Positions 2,316 through 31,623 of a DNA stretch of 35,945 nucleotides are shown piece after piece (within the stretch, counting starts at the first letter, position 1; each line of letters opens with the position of its first letter). The notes below the pieces were generated by a model, which was not told the origin of the DNA, searched no databases, and saw nothing but the letters and a program-made list of their open reading frames with translations. The position numbers were made by a program, and so were the translations under genes. Origin of the DNA: Sulfurimonas sp. C5 (GTDB lineage: Bacteria; Campylobacterota; Campylobacteria; Campylobacterales; Sulfurimonadaceae); NCBI RefSeq assembly GCF_029872055.1, contig NZ_JARXNQ010000008.1, forward strand, positions 1 through 35,945, in the 5' to 3' direction.

Positions 2316-3533
2316 TTAATCTTGTGGAGTACAAAATATTTTTTTGCACCCTTTTTTTGATTGTCTATCCAAGAAATACAGATGTATTTTCTCTATGCTC
2401 TTTTTCATAAGATGAGCAATGCACCCTTTTAAGTAGATACCATAAACTTTTCCACAAGCATAGTTTCTACCAAGTGCAATCAAGATTCCTCTTTGTTTGA
2501 TTCTGCTTTTTAGAAGTTGCTTTTTTTTCTCCATTTTCCTAATGTTTTTTGCTGCCAAAGTACCCATTTGCTCCGCTATGTCTGCCGTCGGGGGTAATTT
2601 GTTATTATCTTGATCATACAATGTTGAGCAATCTCCTACGATGAATACATCCTCGTAATCCACACTTTGAAGATACTCATTAATCTCCAAAAAGCCGAAT
2701 TTGTTTTTTGAAAGTTTTAGATTTGCCACGACACCATTTGGTTCAATACCTCCGGTAAAAATCATAAAATCCATCTCTAAAATCTCACCATTATTCAAAG
2801 TTACATGTGATTCTGTAAGACTTTCAACTCTCACATTATTTTTGATTATCACGGCAAGTTCTTCCAAATGTTTTTCGGAACACTCAACTAAATATTTATC
2901 CAAGCCTTTTAAAATATGCTCTGAAGAGTTAATCAAAACAATACTCAGTTTTCTACATAAAAAATGATTTTGTTCATAAAAGTCTTTTGCAAATGAGGCC
3001 ATTTGTGCTGCTATTTCAACACCGCTGAGTCCTGCTCCTGCTATTACAATGCTTAGAGGTTTACAGTAACTCCCCTCTTTATCTATTTTTTGAAACAGGC
3101 TCATCTCAAACTTTTGTTTAAAGTACATTGCACGATTGAGTGCTTTAATACCGTGTCCGAACTCTTTTAAACCGCTGATACTTGAGACAAACTTAGTTTG
3201 AGCACCTACAGCTATAACAAGATAATCGTAAGTTATTCTTTGAGAATCTGTAATTACTTTTTTATTATTGAAGTCTACATTTTTCACTTCTTGCTTTAGA
3301 AAAGTGACTTCGTTTTTAAACCCAGTGCAGTACGTAAAAAGATCAACACAGACTTGTGCAAAATCATATTCATTTGCGATCAGATCATAAACGTCTGTCT
3401 GCATAAAATGGTATGCATTCTTATCGATCAGAGTAATTTCGTATTTAGGATCTTTACAAAGATTTTGTAAAGCTTTTAAACCGGCATATCCACCGCCAAT
3501 GATCACTATTTTTGTTTTATCGGACTTTTGCAT
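2316..3533 (-). CDS. NDH-2-like NAD(P)/FAD-dependent oxidoreductase
   Basis: A 405-residue two-dinucleotide-binding-domain flavoprotein. The N-terminal FAD motif IIGGGYAGLKAL has GxGxxG at 13-18; a second GAGLSGVEIAAQM motif near residue 165 would bind NADH; FIVGDCS (FAD) and PPTADIAEQMG follow, the latter resembling the quinone-side motif of type II NADH dehydrogenases. The C-terminal part (LGRNYACGKVYGIYLKG) also fits NDH-2. Such enzymes pass electrons from NADH to the quinone pool, here menaquinone, at the inner face of the membrane without pumping protons. A sulfide:quinone reductase is the main alternative, but I see no clear SQR cysteine pattern. No ribosome binding site precedes the ATG; an extended -10 box sits right before it. 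Confidence 0.75.
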   Translation of the reverse strand: MQKSDKTKIVIIGGGYAGLKALQNLCKDPKYEITLIDKNAYHFMQTDVYDLIANEYDFAQVCVDLFTYCTGFKNEVTFLKQEVKNVDFNNKKVITDSQRITYDYLVIAVGAQTKFVSSISGLKEFGHGIKALNRAMYFKQKFEMSLFQKIDKEGSYCKPLSIVIAGAGLSGVEIAAQMASFAKDFYEQNHFLCRKLSIVLINSSEHILKGLDKYLVECSEKHLEELAVIIKNNVRVESLTESHVTLNNGEILEMDFMIFTGGIEPNGVVANLKLSKNKFGFLEINEYLQSVDYEDVFIVGDCSTLYDQDNNKLPPTADIAEQMGTLAAKNIRKMEKKKQLLKSRIKQRGILIALGRNYACGKVYGIYLKGCIAHLMKKSIEKIHLYFLDRQSKKGCKKIFCTPQD

Positions 3534-5452: not shown

Positions 5453-5764
5453 ATAAGGTCCTTTAAAGGCTACATTTTGAGCCAGAAATTATGTTAGTTA
5501 GCTTTGGAAAATGTCTAACGATGACTCTTATATTTGAAGAGGTCGCACTAACTTTTTTGACATTACCTGTTAATATTTTCATCCACTAATGGAAGAAAAA
5601 TCCGCGAATTATACTAAAACTATGTTTAATTTAAGCTTTTTTAAAACCATATACTACATATTATATTTTTATCACACTATTTAAAAAAAGATTTATATTT
5701 ATTTATGTATAGTAACACAATTAATGCACAATGTATTAATAAATGTAATACAAAAAGGGAAGAG
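5453..5764. promoter_or_regulatory. Divergent control region between rpsB and the porin gene
   Basis: A 312-base intergenic stretch. On the minus strand TATAAT at 5608-5613 would start rpsB-tsf transcription near 5601, giving a leader of about 150 bases with a small GTTAG/CTAAC inverted repeat (5493-5519). On the plus strand TGTATAGT near 5706-5713 is a possible -10 for the porin, giving a leader of about 45 bases that ends in AAAGGGAAGAG. I see no further gene here. Confidence 0.45.
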
Positions 5765-7369
5765 ATGAATAAGCCTTTATTATTATCATTGGTTGCATCA
5801 GCTACTATTCTTGGGAGTAATTTATCAGCTGAATCAATGTATGATCGCTTCGAAGCGATGGAAGCAAAAATGCAAAGTATGCAAAAAGAACTAGACGCGT
5901 TGAAAGCAGAAAAAAAATCTGTTAAGATGAGCGTAAAAGATGATTCGGAAGCGGATGATGAGGATGCTAAAGATGATTCCTCAGATGACAATGCGGATGA
6001 TGAATCAGGTGATGATGAATTTGATGTTATCGAAGCATTTGATGAGATGGAAGAAAGTATTTCTGAAATCAACAGAGCTACGAGTGGAAATCATTTAAAG
6101 TTTAATGTTGATTATAGATATGCTATTGAAAATCTTAACTACAAAATGGCTGACGGTTCTAAAGTAAAAAATGATGCCTTAATGACAAATAGACTATGGT
6201 TAAATATGGATTGGGCAGCTTCACACCAAATTAGTTTCCATGGACAGCTTGCCTACAACAAAGCATTTGGACAAAGAAGTGGTTCTGGAAGTAATCTGAC
6301 ACCATTTGAAACTTTTGACTGGATTACGAATGAGAATGCATACGATGATACACTCCGTGTAAAAAATGCTTACTTCTTATATAAGAACTCAACATTTTTA
6401 GGGACTGACATTCCATGGACATTCAGTATCGGTCGCCGTCCTTCAACTAATGGTCACCTTATTAATCTAAGAGATGATGATCATGCTGCATCACCACAAG
6501 GACATTCTATCAATGTTGAGTTTGACGGTTTAAGCTCTTTATTTAAACTTGATAAACTTACTGGTGTTAAAGGGATGTATGTAAAATTCTGTGCAGGTCG
6601 CGGTGGTACAAATGCTGCACCTAAATTTTTCTCTGCAAATCCTACTACGGGTGTAGTAAATCCAAATGCACCATATGCAACAAATAAAGGTGATTTAGGG
6701 AATATTGATCTAGGTGGACTTATTTTCAGAGTTTACAATGACGGACAATATACATTTGATACACAATTCTACTATGCTAACAATTTAATTGATGCAAATA
6801 TTGATCCACTTACTGGTGTAATGACTGGTATGGAAACTGTAGGTGGTCTCTATAGTGGTACTGCTAGTTTTATGATAAACGGTATCGGTAACGGCTTAAG
6901 CGACTACCTAGATGAAACTACTTTCTTTGTAAGCGGTGCTATGAGTAAAACTGATCCTCATCAGGGTCATAGTATGTTAGGCTCAGACACATCTAAAAAA
7001 GGTTATTCTTATTGGGTTGGTTTACAAATGCCTTCATTAGTTACTGATGACGGTAAATGGGGATTTGAGTTTAATCACGGTACAAAATACTGGAGAAGCA
7101 TCACATATGCTGAAGATACAAATATAGGTTCAAAAGTTGCCGCTCGCGGTAATGCTTATGAGGCATATTTTACAGAATACCTTGTAGATGAGATATTATC
7201 TATGCAAATACGTTATACATATATCGATTATGATTACACTGGAAGTAATGGATTCTTTGGAGATTCGACAGGAACTCCATATAAAATTTCAGATCTTACG
7301 GGTACTCAAGCAGCTACAACTGTAGATAAAGCGCAAGATATCCGCTTCTACTTAAGATATAAATTCTAG
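5765..7369 (+). CDS. Outer-membrane porin, DUF3373-like
   Basis: I start this gene at the ATG at 5765, directly after AAGGGAAGAG, because this gives a clean signal peptide (MNKPLLLSLVASATILGSNLSA). The 60 bases of open frame upstream lack such a signal. The mature protein begins with a short coiled coil (MYDRFEAMEAKMQSMQKELDALKAE, split by few breaks), then a segment of about 40 residues rich in Asp and Ser, then roughly 440 residues of alternating beta-strand pattern ending in the aromatic YLRYKF of outer-membrane barrels. The coiled-coil plus barrel plan and sequence style match the DUF3373 family of Campylobacterota; the transported substrate is unknown. Length is 534 residues. Confidence 0.8.
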   Translation: MNKPLLLSLVASATILGSNLSAESMYDRFEAMEAKMQSMQKELDALKAEKKSVKMSVKDDSEADDEDAKDDSSDDNADDESGDDEFDVIEAFDEMEESISEINRATSGNHLKFNVDYRYAIENLNYKMADGSKVKNDALMTNRLWLNMDWAASHQISFHGQLAYNKAFGQRSGSGSNLTPFETFDWITNENAYDDTLRVKNAYFLYKNSTFLGTDIPWTFSIGRRPSTNGHLINLRDDDHAASPQGHSINVEFDGLSSLFKLDKLTGVKGMYVKFCAGRGGTNAAPKFFSANPTTGVVNPNAPYATNKGDLGNIDLGGLIFRVYNDGQYTFDTQFYYANNLIDANIDPLTGVMTGMETVGGLYSGTASFMINGIGNGLSDYLDETTFFVSGAMSKTDPHQGHSMLGSDTSKKGYSYWVGLQMPSLVTDDGKWGFEFNHGTKYWRSITYAEDTNIGSKVAARGNAYEAYFTEYLVDEILSMQIRYTYIDYDYTGSNGFFGDSTGTPYKISDLTGTQAATTVDKAQDIRFYLRYKF

Positions 7370-20737: not shown

Positions 20738-22021
20738 TTATTTTTTCGTTACTATTGCAAAACTCAGTTGTAGTATCTCTGTATGTTTTTTAATAAATTC
20801 GTTGAGATCATCGAGTTTCAAAGCAGAAATTTTTTCTAATTCCTCTTGTGAATGATTCAGTGCAAAACCTTTGTAATATTCTTGGAACGTGCGGTTAAGT
20901 CTTTGACTCATAGTCTCTACTCTTAAAGGCTCACTTCCAAGGAGGAATTTTTTTGTTTGTTCAAGTTCATCTTCAGTTACACCCTTTGTGACAAAGTCTT
21001 TAAAGACCTCTTGAACAACTTTTTTAGCTTCATCACTTGATTCTAGTTTTGTTTGTAAATAGCCAGTCAAATACGAGCGTGATTTTGTAACTTCAACTCT
21101 TGCATATGCACTGTACGCAAGACCGCGTTTTACACGAATTTCCTCCATTAAACGGCTTCCAAATCCACCTGTTCCAAGGATAAAAGTAGCTACTCTAGCT
21201 TTATAGTAATCTTCATCACTTACAGCCATATTATACGGTGAACCGAAGTAAATATACGCCTGTTGTGTTTCTTTATCAAGTTCTAATTCTTTAGATTTTG
21301 CACTTGTATCAAAGTGCGGTAGTTTTTCAGCTTTTCCTTTTGGCAGAGCTTGTAACACTTTACCCATCTGTTTTTTCACATCTTCAAGTGTAACATCACC
21401 GCCAACAAGAACGATTGCTCGAGAGAGACAAATATGTTGCTCGATAAACTTCTTAACGTCTTTAAGAGTAATCTTTTTTATTGTATCAATCTCACCGCTG
21501 CTTGGTTGTGCAAGAACACTCCCTTCAAAAAGAAGTTTGTTTAACTCAACTGCGGCAATATAATCAAAATCATTTGCTTTACGAGAAAGCCCGCCAATCA
21601 TAGTCGTTTGTACTTTTTGTAAAGCATCTTCACTATAGTTTGGATCTTTTAAAAGCTCTTTTAAATATTTCAGAGATTTTACATACTCCTCTTTAAGTGA
21701 GCTGACCTCGATCACAAAAGTCTCTTTTCCGCAGTTTGCAGAGATATGGATTGCACGAGATTCAAGCTCTTCTGCAAAACCGTTTGCACCTAAAGTTTTT
21801 GTCCCTTCATTAAGCATTCTTGATGAAAACTTTGCAAGACCTGCTATTTTTGTATCACGAATACTTCCCGCATTTTGAAAAATCAACTGTGTAGTTACTA
21901 GAGGAAGTCTTTTATCTTCCTCAAAAATAACCGGTACATTTATTCCGTTTATCTCTATGCTGTCAATCTTTGCTGCCATTAAAATCTGTCCTAATAAAAA
22001 AAGTGCTAGAAAAAACTTCAT
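20738..22021 (-). CDS. M16-family protein lacking the zinc site, exported
   Basis: 427 residues with a short signal peptide (MKFFLALFLLGQILMAA), so probably periplasmic. The two M16 halves are present, including the C-terminal substrate-binding motif GGFGSRLMEEIRVKRGLAYS. The HxxEH zinc motif expected after GLA is replaced by KFSSR (64-68), and the distal Glu ligand region (VQTTMIGGLSRKAND) also lacks an obvious ligand. It is therefore likely non-catalytic, like the inactive partner subunits known in M16 heterodimers. Its start shares one base with the mqnC stop (TAATG), so expression is coupled. An active partner gene is not in the window. Confidence 0.88.
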   Translation of the reverse strand: MKFFLALFLLGQILMAAKIDSIEINGINVPVIFEEDKRLPLVTTQLIFQNAGSIRDTKIAGLAKFSSRMLNEGTKTLGANGFAEELESRAIHISANCGKETFVIEVSSLKEEYVKSLKYLKELLKDPNYSEDALQKVQTTMIGGLSRKANDFDYIAAVELNKLLFEGSVLAQPSSGEIDTIKKITLKDVKKFIEQHICLSRAIVLVGGDVTLEDVKKQMGKVLQALPKGKAEKLPHFDTSAKSKELELDKETQQAYIYFGSPYNMAVSDEDYYKARVATFILGTGGFGSRLMEEIRVKRGLAYSAYARVEVTKSRSYLTGYLQTKLESSDEAKKVVQEVFKDFVTKGVTEDELEQTKKFLLGSEPLRVETMSQRLNRTFQEYYKGFALNHSQEELEKISALKLDDLNEFIKKHTEILQLSFAIVTKK

Positions 22022-23070
22022 TAAAAAGTCTCTAAAATATCATACGCCGTATTTCTAATTGCAGGCGTTTCACCAACGTCACGGATAAGATGAAGCATCT
22101 CATCTTTAGCCATTCTAAAACTTGCTCCTGCGGAACTTACTACATTTTCTTCCATCATCGTAGAGCCTAAATCATTTGCTCCAAAGTGAAGAGCCATTTG
22201 ACCAATATACGGGCCTTGCGTTACCCATGAGCTTTGAATATTCGGTACATTGTCAAGATAAAGACGCGCCACCGCTAAAAGTCTCAAGTAACGATTTGAT
22301 GATGGTTTTGGCATATCCGGAAGGAGACGTAACAGTTCCGTATTTTTTCCTTGGAAACTCCACATAATGAACGCACGGAATCCTCCTGTTTCATCTTGCA
22401 AGTTTCTTACCATTTCAAGATGGTCAATTATATCTTCATCGCTCTCAACAGTTCCGTACATCATTGTTGCCGTTGACTTAATTCCTAATTTATGCGCTTT
22501 TCTATGAATATCGACCCATACTTCTGCATCAATTTTCTTCGGTGCGATAATATCTCTTACTTTGTCTGAAAGAATCTCAGCTCCCGCTCCCGGAATAGAA
22601 GCCAGACCTTTTGCTTTCAGGCGAGTTAGAACCTCTTCAACAGAGATGCGTGAAACTTTGGCAATAAAGTCAATTTCAATAGAAGAGAAACCATGAATGG
22701 TAATCTGTGGATATTTTGTGTGGATATGCTCTACAAGATCTTCATACCACTCTATTTTTAGTTTTGGATGCACTCCCCCTTGAAAAAGGATCTGAGTTCC
22801 ACCGATCTCTAAAAGTTCATCAATTTTTGCATCGATCTCATCAAATGTTAGTACATATGCATCAGCATCTTTTTCGTGGCGGTAAAAGGCACAAAACTTA
22901 CAATCAACCCAACAGATGTTCGTATAGTTGATATTTCTGTCAACTACAAATGAAGTAATACCTTCAGGGTGAAGCTCCTTTTTTCTTTGTGTTGCTAGAC
23001 GACCTAACTCTTTTAAATCGGCATTTCTAATTAGGTCAAGTGCCTCTTCTTTTGTTAATCTCTTTTGCAT
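22021..23070 (-). CDS. mqnC: Cyclic dehypoxanthinyl futalosine synthase MqnC
   Basis: 349 residues, radical SAM. The cluster motif is C53-x3-C57-x2-C60 inside RNINYTNICWVDCKFCAFYR, close to the MqnC consensus. It cyclises dehypoxanthine futalosine in the futalosine route to menaquinone, upstream of the mqnP step also encoded in this window. MqnE is the nearest relative, but the overall sequence and length fit MqnC better. It lies 13 bases after the cytochrome gene and overlaps the M16 gene by one base. Confidence 0.9.
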   Translation of the reverse strand: MQKRLTKEEALDLIRNADLKELGRLATQRKKELHPEGITSFVVDRNINYTNICWVDCKFCAFYRHEKDADAYVLTFDEIDAKIDELLEIGGTQILFQGGVHPKLKIEWYEDLVEHIHTKYPQITIHGFSSIEIDFIAKVSRISVEEVLTRLKAKGLASIPGAGAEILSDKVRDIIAPKKIDAEVWVDIHRKAHKLGIKSTATMMYGTVESDEDIIDHLEMVRNLQDETGGFRAFIMWSFQGKNTELLRLLPDMPKPSSNRYLRLLAVARLYLDNVPNIQSSWVTQGPYIGQMALHFGANDLGSTMMEENVVSSAGASFRMAKDEMLHLIRDVGETPAIRNTAYDILETF

Positions 23071-23083
23071 TGTCCCGCTCTTG

Positions 23084-24427
23084 TTATTTCCAACCCTTAT
23101 TTCTAGGATTAATAGATTTTTTTCTTATGAATATAGTATAAAGTATATAGGCTAATATTAAAATAACGAATAATACTAAAATAATCTGAAACCAAGCACT
23201 CATATTTAGAATTCTACTTAGTATTATTTGATGCTCTTTTTCATCAATATCCAGCAGCATCATTTGTGAAATATGCGATACTGTCGACACTGCTAGTGCC
23301 CCGCTTGGAATTGTTTCATGACATGATAAACAAACCCCTCTACGATCAAGCTTATCTTGTTGTGCAGCAGTAAAAACTTTAGATAAATTAAAGTGTGTAA
23401 TGTTATTTTCTTGAAAACTTCCTAGGTCAAGACTACCGTTTAAGACCTTAGATGAAGTATGGCATGATTCACAACTTCGTGAAGCTTTTTGGATAGTATG
23501 CGGAGCAGTCGGTATAAGTTTATTTTTTTCCCAATATTCAACAATTCTTCCTTTTTTATCTATTTCTATAGTTTTTAAAGGTGTATTGGGAGCTGCCGGC
23601 AGAAGTTTATCGTTTTGATCTTTTGCTAAAAATGGCTCTTCCCATCTCATAAGCATAGAAGTTTTTGTTACTTGATTTGCTACTTTTTTTACGCGTAAAT
23701 CTGTTGTCGTTACAGAACCGAAAAATTGAGGTATCCATACCGCATGACAGCTTGAACATGATACGTTTTTCAAGTGCCCTTTGATATATTCCATTGATGC
23801 CAGTGCATGTTTAGACAGCTGCTTTTTCTTTTTGAGTAGTTTTAATGGTTGTAGTTGCAGCTCTTTACCAGAAGCTAGAATGACCGTAACTGTCTGCTCT
23901 TTTTTTAAGACATTAACAAGTGACGTACCTGTACTGCTTATAAGATATGTTACGTTATTTTCTTGAAAAACACCTCTTGCAATCTTGCTACCTTCTATAC
24001 CAAGTTCCCATGGATACTTCTTTGTCGTTCCATGACAATCTTGACACTTTATTTCACTTTCTCTTTTTGAAGACCAAAAATCATCATTATGCATTTCATT
24101 TGAAGTATGGCAATCCTGACAACTCATACCCTTTTGAAAGTGAATATCACTTTGCATATGAAAATGCTCTTTTGAGCCGTAATGTTTTTGTAGTAATCCT
24201 TGATAACTCAACCATACGGGGTTGTCATCATTGGAAAATTTTTTAAAGTTTTGTAATGTAACCGGAGATGTTTTTTGAAGTTTGTTTTTTTGGTGTTCAA
24301 GCGTTTGTGTATGACAACTTGTACATTTACTTGTCATAAACTTTGCTTGTTCTTGATGACATGAGACACATTCACCTAAACCAAAAAGGTTTAGAGTAAG
24401 AATTACTACTAGTGTCAAATATCTCAT
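23084..24427 (-). CDS. Membrane-anchored seven-haem c-type cytochrome
   Basis: 447 residues. N-terminal signal peptide (MRYLTLVVILTLNLFG), then seven CxxCH haem sites at about 20-24, 35-39, 103-107, 128-132, 224-228, 319-323 and 366-370, and a C-terminal transmembrane helix (about 411-434) with a basic cytoplasmic tail. The haem domain is thus periplasmic and membrane-tethered. Two inserts without haems, at about 133-223 and 229-318, separate the haem pairs. The phrases FQENNVT (154-160) and FQENNIT (338-344) are near copies, a trace of internal duplication. No reductase partner is adjacent; it sits between nusB and mqnC. Likely an electron carrier between menaquinol and a periplasmic acceptor; the substrate is unknown. 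Confidence 0.9.
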   Translation of the reverse strand: MRYLTLVVILTLNLFGLGECVSCHQEQAKFMTSKCTSCHTQTLEHQKNKLQKTSPVTLQNFKKFSNDDNPVWLSYQGLLQKHYGSKEHFHMQSDIHFQKGMSCQDCHTSNEMHNDDFWSSKRESEIKCQDCHGTTKKYPWELGIEGSKIARGVFQENNVTYLISSTGTSLVNVLKKEQTVTVILASGKELQLQPLKLLKKKKQLSKHALASMEYIKGHLKNVSCSSCHAVWIPQFFGSVTTTDLRVKKVANQVTKTSMLMRWEEPFLAKDQNDKLLPAAPNTPLKTIEIDKKGRIVEYWEKNKLIPTAPHTIQKASRSCESCHTSSKVLNGSLDLGSFQENNITHFNLSKVFTAAQQDKLDRRGVCLSCHETIPSGALAVSTVSHISQMMLLDIDEKEHQIILSRILNMSAWFQIILVLFVILILAYILYTIFIRKKSINPRNKGWK

Positions 24428-24431
24428 GAGA

Positions 24432-24833
24432 CTACTTTTTGTCTTTAGAGATTGCGTCTAATACACCGTTTATAAATTTTGGAGACTGTTCAGTTCCAAA
24501 TGCTTTTGTAATTTCAACCGCTTCGTTAATAATAACAGCACTGTCAAGATCACCAAAAAGAATTTCATAAGCCGCTAATCTCAGTGTCGCTCTTTCAATT
24601 GCACCAAGACGTTCAAAATCCCACTCTTTTAAATGTGTTTCAATCGCTTTGTCACATTCAGGTAATTTTTCCATTACACCTTCATACAATGAAATTGCAA
24701 AATCCTTTTGTTTATTACGAATTTTTTTCTCTTCTAGAATTTCATCTGTATGTTCAGCGATATTTCCGTTTCCTAAATCGTAAGCGTATAATAAGCTTAC
24801 AACTGCCATTCTTGCGTGATGTCTAGTAGCCAT
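24432..24833 (-). CDS. nusB: Transcription antitermination factor NusB
   Basis: 133 residues, all-helical. ATRHHARMAVVSLLYAYD at the N-terminus, the central WDFERLGAIERATLRLAAYEI block and the final KFINGVLDAISKD are family hallmarks. With NusE (S10) it binds boxA RNA and supports rRNA antitermination. The start shares one base with the ribH stop (TAATG). The ribH-nusB pair is common across bacteria. Confidence 0.96.
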   Translation of the reverse strand: MATRHHARMAVVSLLYAYDLGNGNIAEHTDEILEEKKIRNKQKDFAISLYEGVMEKLPECDKAIETHLKEWDFERLGAIERATLRLAAYEILFGDLDSAVIINEAVEITKAFGTEQSPKFINGVLDAISKDKK

Positions 24834-29556: not shown

Positions 29557-30801
29557 TTAAAAAAGCGTTCCCTGTTTCGGGACGCCTTTTATAAAAAATC
29601 TATTAAAATATTTTATCCACGATCTTACAGTTTGTAATCTTCTCTCAATTGTAGTACCTTGTAAACCATAACTTTCAAAATCATTTTCATTTTGCTTTTT
29701 GCCTTTTAGTTGCGCAAAACAGATAGGTTCTGAAAAGATTATACGGACAAACTCTTCGAGCCTTTTTTCAATATTTAAAGAGAGTAAATACTCACCTCTC
29801 TCTGTTAAACAAAGTTCCCCCTGAAATTCTGTACACACTCCCATCCATTTTAATACATTTAAATAGTAATCGTACTGTCTTGCAACAATATCAAATTCAC
29901 CCATAACTTCCATTTTTGTAGGATGCTGTGTGTTGGCAATCTTTAAAAAAACAGCATGGACTTTTTCAAAATCATTCGCTTGAGGAAACGGAATGTCACG
30001 ATCAACCAAAATTTTTGAATTCTCTTCTAAATCATTCAGTGTAAAAGAGCTTTTTCTTTCAAAACGAAATGCTTTTTCTTCAGCATCCAACACTCTGCTG
30101 GTATTTCCGTCATAATAAAAAGGGATAAAACGAAAGATATCATCCTGGTAATAAAAGATAAAACTTTTTATCTCTTTTCTTTGCCCTTGAAGTTGTTTTT
30201 TCCAAAACAGTTCCGGATATAGAAGCTGTCTGATATTGATGTTGTTTCTATATCCTATCTTTGCTTCTACAAGATTGACTGTACTTTGTCCTTCATAACC
30301 GCCGTCAACTTCTATTTGGACACCTTCCACATCATAGGTAATACCGTTTAAAGTAAAACTGAGTTCCCCTCGAAGTCTTCCCCGAATAGTCAACTGTGTC
30401 TCTTCTTGAAAAACTTCATCCATCATCCCTGAAACCATAGCTATATCTAGTGCTGCCGATTCACTTTTTAAATTAAGAGGATCGATTGAAAGAAGATCTT
30501 TGGGTTGTTGGATAACTCTAATCTTACATTGCGGCTCTTGTTGGATATAGATAAAAGGATCTGTTTTTGCAATCCTGTACATACCATTTTGAATTGCTAA
30601 AATAGAAAGGGAATTTTCCTGCATTACTTTTGGAAGATGCTCTTTATGATCGACTTTAGTCATTAAACGGGCTTCTTTACCGTCTCTTTTTTTGATCTCC
30701 TCTGCAGAGATATCAAAAAAGCCGTTTTTCTCAATAGAACCTAAAATTTTTAGATCATCAAATATATGTTCCCAGGCTTCGTTATTAGAGACTTTATGCA
30801 T
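29557..30801 (-). CDS. Probable type II restriction endonuclease
   Basis: 414 residues from ATG 30801, chosen because AGGG lies 7 bases upstream, overlapping the stop of the methyltransferase gene; a TTG two codons earlier is too close to that site. The central region has IEVDGGYEGQ and LVEAKIG with Asp166, Glu179 and Lys181, a good PD-(D/E)xK nuclease core. An N-terminal part (about 1-110) may read DNA, and the C-terminus (LTERGEYLLSL) looks like a winged helix. I do not recognise the isoschizomer group; it does not look like DpnII. Pairing with a Dam-type methyltransferase supports a type II system. Its last codons overlap the terminator of the converging lipoprotein gene. Confidence 0.75.
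   Translation of the reverse strand: MHKVSNNEAWEHIFDDLKILGSIEKNGFFDISAEEIKKRDGKEARLMTKVDHKEHLPKVMQENSLSILAIQNGMYRIAKTDPFIYIQQEPQCKIRVIQQPKDLLSIDPLNLKSESAALDIAMVSGMMDEVFQEETQLTIRGRLRGELSFTLNGITYDVEGVQIEVDGGYEGQSTVNLVEAKIGYRNNINIRQLLYPELFWKKQLQGQRKEIKSFIFYYQDDIFRFIPFYYDGNTSRVLDAEEKAFRFERKSSFTLNDLEENSKILVDRDIPFPQANDFEKVHAVFLKIANTQHPTKMEVMGEFDIVARQYDYYLNVLKWMGVCTEFQGELCLTERGEYLLSLNIEKRLEEFVRIIFSEPICFAQLKGKKQNENDFESYGLQGTTIERRLQTVRSWIKYFNRFFIKGVPKQGTLF
29565..29590 (+). terminator. Intrinsic terminator of the LPP20-like gene, inside the nuclease gene
   Basis: GCGTTCCC and GGGACGC pair (seven G/C-rich pairs, one bulged T) around TGTTTC, followed by CTTTT. It lies 10 bases after the lipoprotein stop and falls entirely within the last codons of the restriction gene on the other strand (KGVPKQGT). 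Confidence 0.8.
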
Positions 30802-30810
30802 CTTCAAACC

Positions 30811-31623
30811 CTAGTAGTTTGTAACAACCACTTCCGTAATTTTACCTCTTTTTGAAGCGTTCGAGTTGATGCTTCTCGTCGCTTTTACTTCATGAATATT
30901 GTAGTCTTTATACAATTCATATACATACTTAGCAGAGGAGTTTGAAAGCATAAAATACGCACCGATTTTATCAATATATTCGCATAACTCTTCGAGTCGA
31001 AACTGCATATCTTCATCAAAGCCCTGATCTGTATAACCTGTAAAGCTTGATGTCGCATTTAAAGGGACATAAGGGGGATCGAAATAAACAAAATCACCCT
31101 CTTTTATATGCTCTTTTATCGACTCAAAATCTCCGTTATTGATCTCGGTATTTTTCAGAAGTTCACTGCACGCTTGTATATTTTCACTATCACAATACTT
31201 TGGATTTTTATATCTTCCAAATGGAACATTGCACTCCCCTTTGGAGTTCACTCTGTATAAACCGTTAAAACCTGTTTTGTTTAAATAGATAAAACGGCTG
31301 GCTCTTTGAATATTGTTTAATTTTGAAAAAACTTTTTTATCTCTGTCAAGAGCTCTCATCTCATAATAATATTCTGATTCATTTTTATGTTGTTGCAGAT
31401 CTTCGATGAGTTCCGTCGGATTATCGCGTATCGTCGTGTAAAGATTTGTGAGTTCCGGATTGTAGTCGTTGATATAAGCATTTTCTGGTTTAAGTTCAAA
31501 AAAGAGCGCGCCTCCACCTATAAACGGTTCAAAATATCTGTTGTATTTTTTCGGCATCAATCTTTTGAGATCTTTTATGAGTTGACGTTTACCCCCAACC
31601 CACTTTATAATCGGCTTACACAT
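30811..31623 (-). CDS. D12-class DNA adenine-N6 methyltransferase (Dam/DpnM-like)
   Basis: 270 residues, alpha-class amino-methyltransferase. KWVGGKRQL and the SAM-binding FEPFIGGGALFFEL (31-44) open the protein; the catalytic DPPY is at 182-185 in VYFDPPYVPLNATSSFTGY. It resembles DpnM/MboI-type enzymes closely, including the LYRVNSKG and VPFGRYKNPK blocks. That suggests GATC as target, but EcoRV-type enzymes share the fold, so specificity is open. It lies ahead of the nuclease gene in the same message, so protection is made first. Confidence 0.9.
   Translation of the reverse strand: MCKPIIKWVGGKRQLIKDLKRLMPKKYNRYFEPFIGGGALFFELKPENAYINDYNPELTNLYTTIRDNPTELIEDLQQHKNESEYYYEMRALDRDKKVFSKLNNIQRASRFIYLNKTGFNGLYRVNSKGECNVPFGRYKNPKYCDSENIQACSELLKNTEINNGDFESIKEHIKEGDFVYFDPPYVPLNATSSFTGYTDQGFDEDMQFRLEELCEYIDKIGAYFMLSNSSAKYVYELYKDYNIHEVKATRSINSNASKRGKITEVVVTNY

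Follow-up and report, generated by a model that had tools for sequence, protein, structure and literature searches.

A seven-haem cytochrome between nusB and mqnC of Sulfurimonas sp. C5 is very probably a reduced form of a twelve-haem family

What is a multihaem cytochrome gene doing within a run of housekeeping genes of Sulfurimonas sp. C5, and from what does its unusual arrangement of haem sites descend? The stretch of DNA analysed here (35,945 nucleotides, hereafter the window) carries on one strand the order kdsA-ribH-nusB-cytochrome-mqnC-M16 peptidase (kdsA and ribH named by sequence alone), with gaps of 4 bases between the cytochrome gene and nusB and 13 bases between it and mqnC. The product, a protein of 447 amino acids, begins with a hydrophobic stretch, contains seven CxxCH motifs and has a C-terminal membrane helix. 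By eye, all 14 of its cysteines lie inside CxxCH motifs, and residues 133-223 and 229-318 make up two haem-free stretches. Two c7/c3-type Pfam models score above their cut-offs (PF14522, 42.5 bits; PF14537, 41.8 bits), and the haem motifs are therefore not a product of chance. The seven motifs, two haem-free inserts, C-terminal anchor and flanking nusB and mqnC described in the initial annotation were all confirmed by the open reading frame, the predicted helix, and the PF01029 and TIGR03699 matches of the neighbours.

The protein has one match in its own genome at E ≤ 0.001. Structure prediction, which the initial annotation had proposed as a check, was confident for the anchor helix only: the AlphaFold model of the window protein has a mean pLDDT of 38.0, with helix blocks over residues 401-440 at 72, 91, 93 and 67. 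A twelve-haem protein gave a mean of 44.4, and both models are unusable apart from the anchor. Searches against solved structures with the window protein and with its twelve-haem parents returned no significant match. Neither promoter-like sites (21 versus 26.9 in shuffles) nor terminator-like sites (4 versus 4.8) were enriched around the locus. Elsewhere in the window, a DUF3373 protein of 554 amino acids (5705-7369, plus strand; PF11853, 404 bits) is encoded about 16 kb from the cytochrome, and a D12-class adenine methyltransferase lies beside a DUF6996/DUF6997/DUF7226 protein (29557-31623, minus strand) in what looks like a restriction-modification pair.

A search with the window protein matched 52 of 99 relatives and 81 of 135 Sulfurimonas genomes (44 of the 79 of good quality), the count of 81 including relics and single weak segments (G023; G046, E 7.6e-4; G131, E 3.6e-4). 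When the nusB–mqnC slot is occupied, it usually holds a cytochrome of about 800 amino acids with twelve CxxCH motifs, such as the 803-residue protein of a record titled S. indica NW8N (L117). In twenty regions and further ones that were read, wherever both sides are visible in Sulfurimonas, the gene lies between nusB and mqnC, be it for 12, 10 or 7 haems. Outside the genus but within the order, all five regions read (G062, G065, G076, G093 and G083) have the cytochrome gene elsewhere. Several Sulfurimonas genomes carry a DUF302 gene between cytochrome and mqnC (L031 10794-11246, L039 8506-8949), for which the window slot has no room.

Contigs were also scanned for relatives. A single-protein query confirmed none, and an alignment query confirmed relatives: in the named records it matched at least 592 stretches, at least 448 of which encode one. 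Twelve motifs are found in 77 of the best 80 of these stretches, the remaining three being truncated or frameshifted; by title, the 80 belong to Campylobacterota and Bacteroidota, two reading only 'bacterium'. Thirty-two of the 80 loci have nusB and mqnC on either side, 23 have neither within flanks that are long enough, and three have mqnC without nusB; at the other 22, one flank or both fall short. At 15 loci with long enough flanks, labelled Sulfurovum, Sulfurovaceae, Sulfurospirillum or Bacteroidota, the twelve-haem gene adjoins neither nusB nor mqnC. Ten recurrent neighbours of the twelve-haem gene in other genera were scanned with Pfam; nine matched (SurA/PPIase, dCTP deaminase-like, topoisomerase, ABM monooxygenase, class II aldolase, PS decarboxylase, DUF1015, cytidylyltransferase and RNase T/GIY-YIG families), and one, with a single CxxCH, matched none. 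Seven Bacteroidota-titled records (L136, L141, L147, L152, L153, L156 and L158) hold a twelve-haem cytochrome that is 62-66% identical to that of Sulfurimonas over the best segment, and the Campylobacterales protein of G083, with its C-terminus cut, reaches only 48%. That the Bacteroidota copies are the closer ones may reflect either phylum-to-phylum transfer or a binning error.

Alignment with the twelve-haem parents accounts for most of the window protein (Table 1). Homology runs to the end of the protein, including the anchor and an INPRNxGWK-like tail, with long deletions in the first half; haems 7, 8, 9, 11 and 12 have one-to-one counterparts, as does the anchor. Five parent haems are gone: numbers 6 and 10 have been substituted, and three out of haems 1-5 were lost mostly through deletion. 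Haem 4 is not called lost in the seven-haem proteins, because the full alignment and the segment scores place the first motifs differently; the N-terminus aligns weakly (6.2 bits) with the signal peptide and haem 1 of the twelve-haem profile. The protein is termed a reduced allele, and not a dodecahaem cytochrome, because it has seven CxxCH motifs instead of twelve, and we regard its descent from the twelve-haem cytochrome as very probable. The orphan status first given to it was therefore not upheld: by sequence, it is a cut-down form of a twelve-haem family found at the same locus.

Table 1. Features of the cytochrome gene and its slot in the window; parent haem numbers follow the twelve-haem Sulfurimonas proteins.
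Feature	Residues	Coordinates	Strand	Basis or remark
Seven-haem C-terminally tethered cytochrome; very probably a shortened orthologue of the Sulfurimonas twelve-haem cytochrome		23084..24427	(-)	ORF, 7 CxxCH, shared slot
Putative signal peptide	1-18	24374..24427	(-)	Hydrophobic stretch before first haem, by eye
CxxCH 1	20-24	24356..24370	(-)	Segment scores favour parent haem 1 or 3; full alignment gives haem 4
CxxCH 2	35-39	24311..24325	(-)	Full alignment gives parent haem 5; segment scores disagree
Lost haem 6 site		24233..24247	(-)	Parent CSTCH, window FKKFS (alignments)
CxxCH 3, parent haem 7 (CQDCH)	103-107	24107..24121	(-)	Alignment
CxxCH 4, parent haem 8 (CQDCH)	128-132	24032..24046	(-)	Alignment
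CxxCH 5, parent haem 9 (CSSCH)	224-228	23744..23758	(-)	Alignment
Lost haem 10 site		23711..23725	(-)	Parent CYGCH, window FFGSV (alignments)
CxxCH 6, parent haem 11 (CESCH)	319-323	23459..23473	(-)	Alignment
CxxCH 7, parent haem 12 (CLSCH)	366-370	23318..23332	(-)	Alignment
C-terminal helix including membrane anchor	396-434	23126..23242	(-)	AF2 model; hydrophobic stretch by eye
Basic tail, ending INPRNKGWK	435-447	23087..23125	(-)	Similar tails in aligned Sulfurimonas alleles; G042 relic keeps tail
nusB, upstream neighbour defining the slot		24432..24833	(-)	PF01029
mqnC, downstream neighbour defining the slot		22021..23070	(-)	TIGR03699, 508 bits

Two similar FQENN phrases (residues 154 and 338) had been taken as a sign of internal duplication, a reading that comparison did not support. 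Neither of the other two seven-haem proteins has the first phrase; the second lines up with the DENGT...H(F/W) segment of the parents. A self-match of 34 amino acids (35%, 25.8 bits), weak and obtained in a tiny search space, counts in favour of a duplication.

Reduced forms of the cytochrome take several shapes. Among the matches listed, the seven-haem form occurs besides the window only in G031 and G048 (423 amino acids, 62-68% identical over the matched parts). Ten-haem alleles measure 754 amino acids in G041, 610 in G002 and 608 in G105, and 676-681 in G138, G139, G172, G166 and G117; G015 yields contig-end fragments of the same kind and, in the host tree, was treated as ten-haem. The draft genome G117 (L177, L178) has, in addition to the ten-haem allele in the slot, a twelve-haem gene that sits apart on a different short contig, either a second copy or contamination.

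The haem content was surveyed in 113 distinct proteins, each of at least 400 amino acids with a QDCHG or SDCHG motif and at least seven CxxCH. Of these, 98 carry twelve CxxCH motifs, eight ten and three seven, and four are cut or frameshifted (L101, L131, L140 and L021). Haem 10 is absent from all 11 reduced alleles, and haem 4 is also absent from each of the eight ten-haem alleles. Both sites are present in 102 of the 113 proteins, and the eight proteins without either are precisely the ten-haem ones; from the three seven-haem proteins, haems 10 and 6 are missing. G041 retains the residues of both sites in altered form (HLRSH for haem 4, HYGSQ for haem 10), a substitution instead of a deletion, which looks like an early step in haem loss.

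Potential haem ligands outside the motifs were compared as well. The parent histidines H330 and H707 (L083 numbering) are gone in seven of the eight ten-haem proteins and kept in G041; five have lost H264 and five H147. H707 is kept in the seven-haem proteins. Nine non-motif histidines are common to the three seven-haem proteins and at least 98% of the 98 twelve-haem ones, against seven haems, and the twelve-haem parents conserve 13 for their 12 haems. With these numbers, no haem need be five-coordinate in either form.

Beyond reduction lies loss. In a survey of 24 Sulfurimonas genomes (21 unmatched ones plus G046, G023 and G057), mqnC was found at 86% identity or more in 19, most of them without the cytochrome. 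Four of the remaining five have only a paralogue at 37-40%, presumably MqnE, and one has nothing; four of these five genomes are less than 90% complete and one, G014, stands at 91%. Fourteen loci have nusB and mqnC both visible: 12 are without a detectable cytochrome (tblastn, E ≤ 1e-3) and two contain relics. The relic of G023 (L059, about 2547-3107) has lost most of the gene and is interrupted by an in-frame stop; what remains is haems 9/10 and 12 and the tail. That of G042 (L054, about 1369-1482) amounts to about 30 codons ending INPRNKGWK, in a frame that differs from that of nusB. Since empty or relic slots keep mqnC, the cytochrome is dispensable and mqnC is not lost with it. A core respiratory role tied to menaquinone, suggested by the initial annotation from the position of the gene, is not supported, given this dispensability, the matching of only 81 of the 135 genomes and the 15 loci described above that have neither neighbour, and the co-occurrence with mqnC that it proposed to examine fails in the same way, mqnC persisting without the cytochrome. 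In two draft genomes, mqnC is itself split over frames (G168, L192 9579-10621; G021, L068 1409-2469), perhaps through sequencing errors. Taken together, the relatives appear to display a twelve-haem protein trimmed, wrecked or lost stepwise.

The origin of the reduced alleles was addressed with host and gene trees. In a quick tree built on five neighbouring proteins of 51 loci, the window, G031 and G048 formed one clade (SH-aLRT 98), whose sister was the twelve-haem host G118 (support 92). The ten-haem hosts fell into at least two separate parts of this tree, and 13 changes of state were needed. The neighbouring genes rejected a single clade of all ten-haem hosts (p-AU 3.5e-88) and a host clade of the seven-haem genomes with G002, G105 and G015 (p 0.0035). 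In the cytochrome tree, the seven-haem proteins sit on a branch of more than one change per site and join G002 and G105 (support 76.7, not starred). Here a grouping of the seven-haem proteins with G118 alone was rejected (p 1.7e-5), and one with G118 and G106 was not (0.196). Nor did the cytochrome tree reject a single clade of all reduced forms (p 0.073), the three ten-haem groups as a clade (0.178) or the G041 and ~680-residue groups together (0.455). The differing lesions suggest that reduced alleles arose by parallel loss; they may instead have spread by transfer in place, or by a single origin followed by transfer. Because the host trees reject one clade and the gene tree does not, parallel loss and allele transfer both stand.

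What might such a protein do? We consider it reasonably probable that the gene, still under purifying selection, is a reduced in-slot allele whose product serves as an inner-membrane-tethered periplasmic electron relay. In this model the protein would be secreted and sit in the inner membrane facing the periplasm, and electrons would pass along bis-His c-type haems from a membrane quinol-oxidising complex to soluble periplasmic carriers or reductases, or the reverse way between them. The nine conserved non-motif histidines would suffice in number for bis-His ligation of all seven haems, counts being no proof of it. Trimming would have taken side or terminal haems, notably haem 10, together with haem 4 in the ten-haem alleles; the retained haems 7, 8, 9, 11 and 12 would form the part of the chain that leads to the membrane anchor. 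The suggested link to quinol oxidation draws on one scanned ExtM-like operon, that of G094, and not on the window locus. In transcription order, the G094 run (L193 6476-15113) encodes a PhsA-like molybdoenzyme, a 4Fe-4S protein, an unmatched small ORF, a Rieske protein, an ExtP-like cytochrome b, a homocysteine methyltransferase, the ExtM-like protein and an ExtN-like protein with eight CxxCH. The ext context of ExtN, Rieske protein and cytochrome b is absent at the window locus, where the examined neighbours are other genes. Of three candidate partner families followed across the 135 Sulfurimonas genomes, none was constant: NrfA exceeds its cut-off in eight, MtrB/PioB in six and the HAO-like octahaem family PF13447 in four, and the window's own genome has no match to NrfA, MtrB/PioB or PF13447.

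The protein could instead be a catalytic multihaem reductase, for example of nitrite, sulfite or selenium/tellurium oxyanions, which we judge unlikely. ExtM, the named family closest to it, carries the label of a selenite/tellurite reduction operon cytochrome, and the parents have weak, non-significant profile matches to MccA (E 0.13) and cytochrome nitrite reductase (E 0.55). However, there is no CxxCK-type site, since all cysteines lie in CxxCH motifs by eye, and histidines are numerous enough for all haems. Moreover, the ExtM label stems from an operon whose tested member is reported to be the porin ExtI (PMC5877670).

A still less likely reading is that of a failing gene, a transitional stage toward loss with little or no function. 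The relics in G023 and G042 and the absence of the gene from many relatives fit such a stage, as does the rate of protein change. By the Nei-Gojobori method, dN/dS was 0.13, 0.23 and 0.24 for the three seven-haem pairs, several times the values of 0.04 and 0.06 for the two measurable twelve-haem pairs (two further pairs were saturated) and of 0.015-0.025 for mqnC of the same three seven-haem genomes; four ten-haem pairs gave 0.13-0.19. Yet the seven-haem values are well below 1 at synonymous distances of 0.74-1.35, and three genomes keep the same seven haems and anchor, with the nine histidines intact. These results indicate that the reduced cytochromes are under purifying but relaxed selection. 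Finally, membership of an outer-membrane extracellular electron conduit of the MtrCAB or Geobacter type is very improbable: the parent L117 does match MtrC/MtrF domains II/IV (PF22113, best stretch 208-379, 42.5 bits, cut-off 30), but the window protein has no PF22113 or TIGR03507 match in Pfam and NCBIfam scans and bears a C-terminal membrane helix, and MtrB/PioB porins exceed the cut-off in only six of the 135 genomes (18 at E ≤ 0.001, with short partial matches), the window's genome not among them.

The slot may record how a wire is taken apart. Comparisons of multihaem cytochromes mostly span distant groups, in which gain and loss of haems are hard to distinguish. Here loss can be ordered and put to the test, because one slot in one genus holds, besides alleles with 12, 10 or 7 haems, a stop-bearing pseudogene, a remnant of the tail and sites with no gene at all. 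We tentatively propose that a twelve-haem wire has been dismantled repeatedly in a preferred order, leaving a working minimal membrane-proximal chain, and hold this with some reserve. The first to go would be haems 4 and 10, a functional pair forming a side branch or docking site; haem 6 and the N-terminal haems would follow. Such a series, if true, would be a natural deletion experiment that separates the haems needed for the relay from those serving a lost partner. Short forms that still pass electrons would represent a minimal natural wire, and ones that do not, a respiratory branch being retired. Annotators could also group the slot proteins as one family.

NapC/NrfH quinol dehydrogenases are membrane-tethered periplasmic multihaem relays with an N-terminal anchor. 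The window protein differs in having its anchor at the C-terminus, its N-terminal stretch being by eye a putative signal peptide, and the NrfH model gives it only 25 bits against a cut-off of 134. It also differs in its anchor from outer-membrane decahaem cytochromes of the MtrC/MtrF type, whose porin partner was not found. The closest counterpart is the Sulfurimonas twelve-haem cytochrome, which has the same slot, hydrophobic N-terminus, haems 7-9, 11 and 12, C-terminal anchor and tail; it is about 800 residues long, compared with seven haems in 447 residues in the window, where long stretches between haems are shortened or gone. No family name was found for this twelve-haem nusB–mqnC cytochrome, and a search of titles and abstract openings, most subscription journals lying outside its scope, found no paper on it.

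The initial annotation was right that the architecture has no ready name. The profile search it proposed placed the c7/c3 Pfam models above cut-off, with the best named model, ExtM (NCBIfam NF040943), far below it at 67 bits against 800; the ExtN/ExtO match reached 57 bits against 200. ExtM, which is GSU2935, is predicted to bind twelve haems and belongs to the extHIJKLMNOPQS cluster (PMC5877670), and a second report describes ExtM and ExtN homologues in cable bacteria (PMC11976967). On the ExtM model, three twelve-haem proteins scored 219-240 bits, two ten-haem ones 197 and 129, and the seven-haem protein of G031 66; the ExtM-like L193 and L195 scored 264 and 281 bits, with matches spanning almost the full model. 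Four ExtM-like twelve-haem proteins of 585-607 amino acids from other genomes of the order align with the Sulfurimonas parents at all 12 haems. These comparisons support a relationship between the twelve-haem Sulfurimonas cytochrome and the ExtM dodecahaem family, the two being alike in haem order and conserved segments; unlike the Sulfurimonas cytochrome, the ExtM-like copies end soon after haem 12, by eye without a C-terminal anchor.
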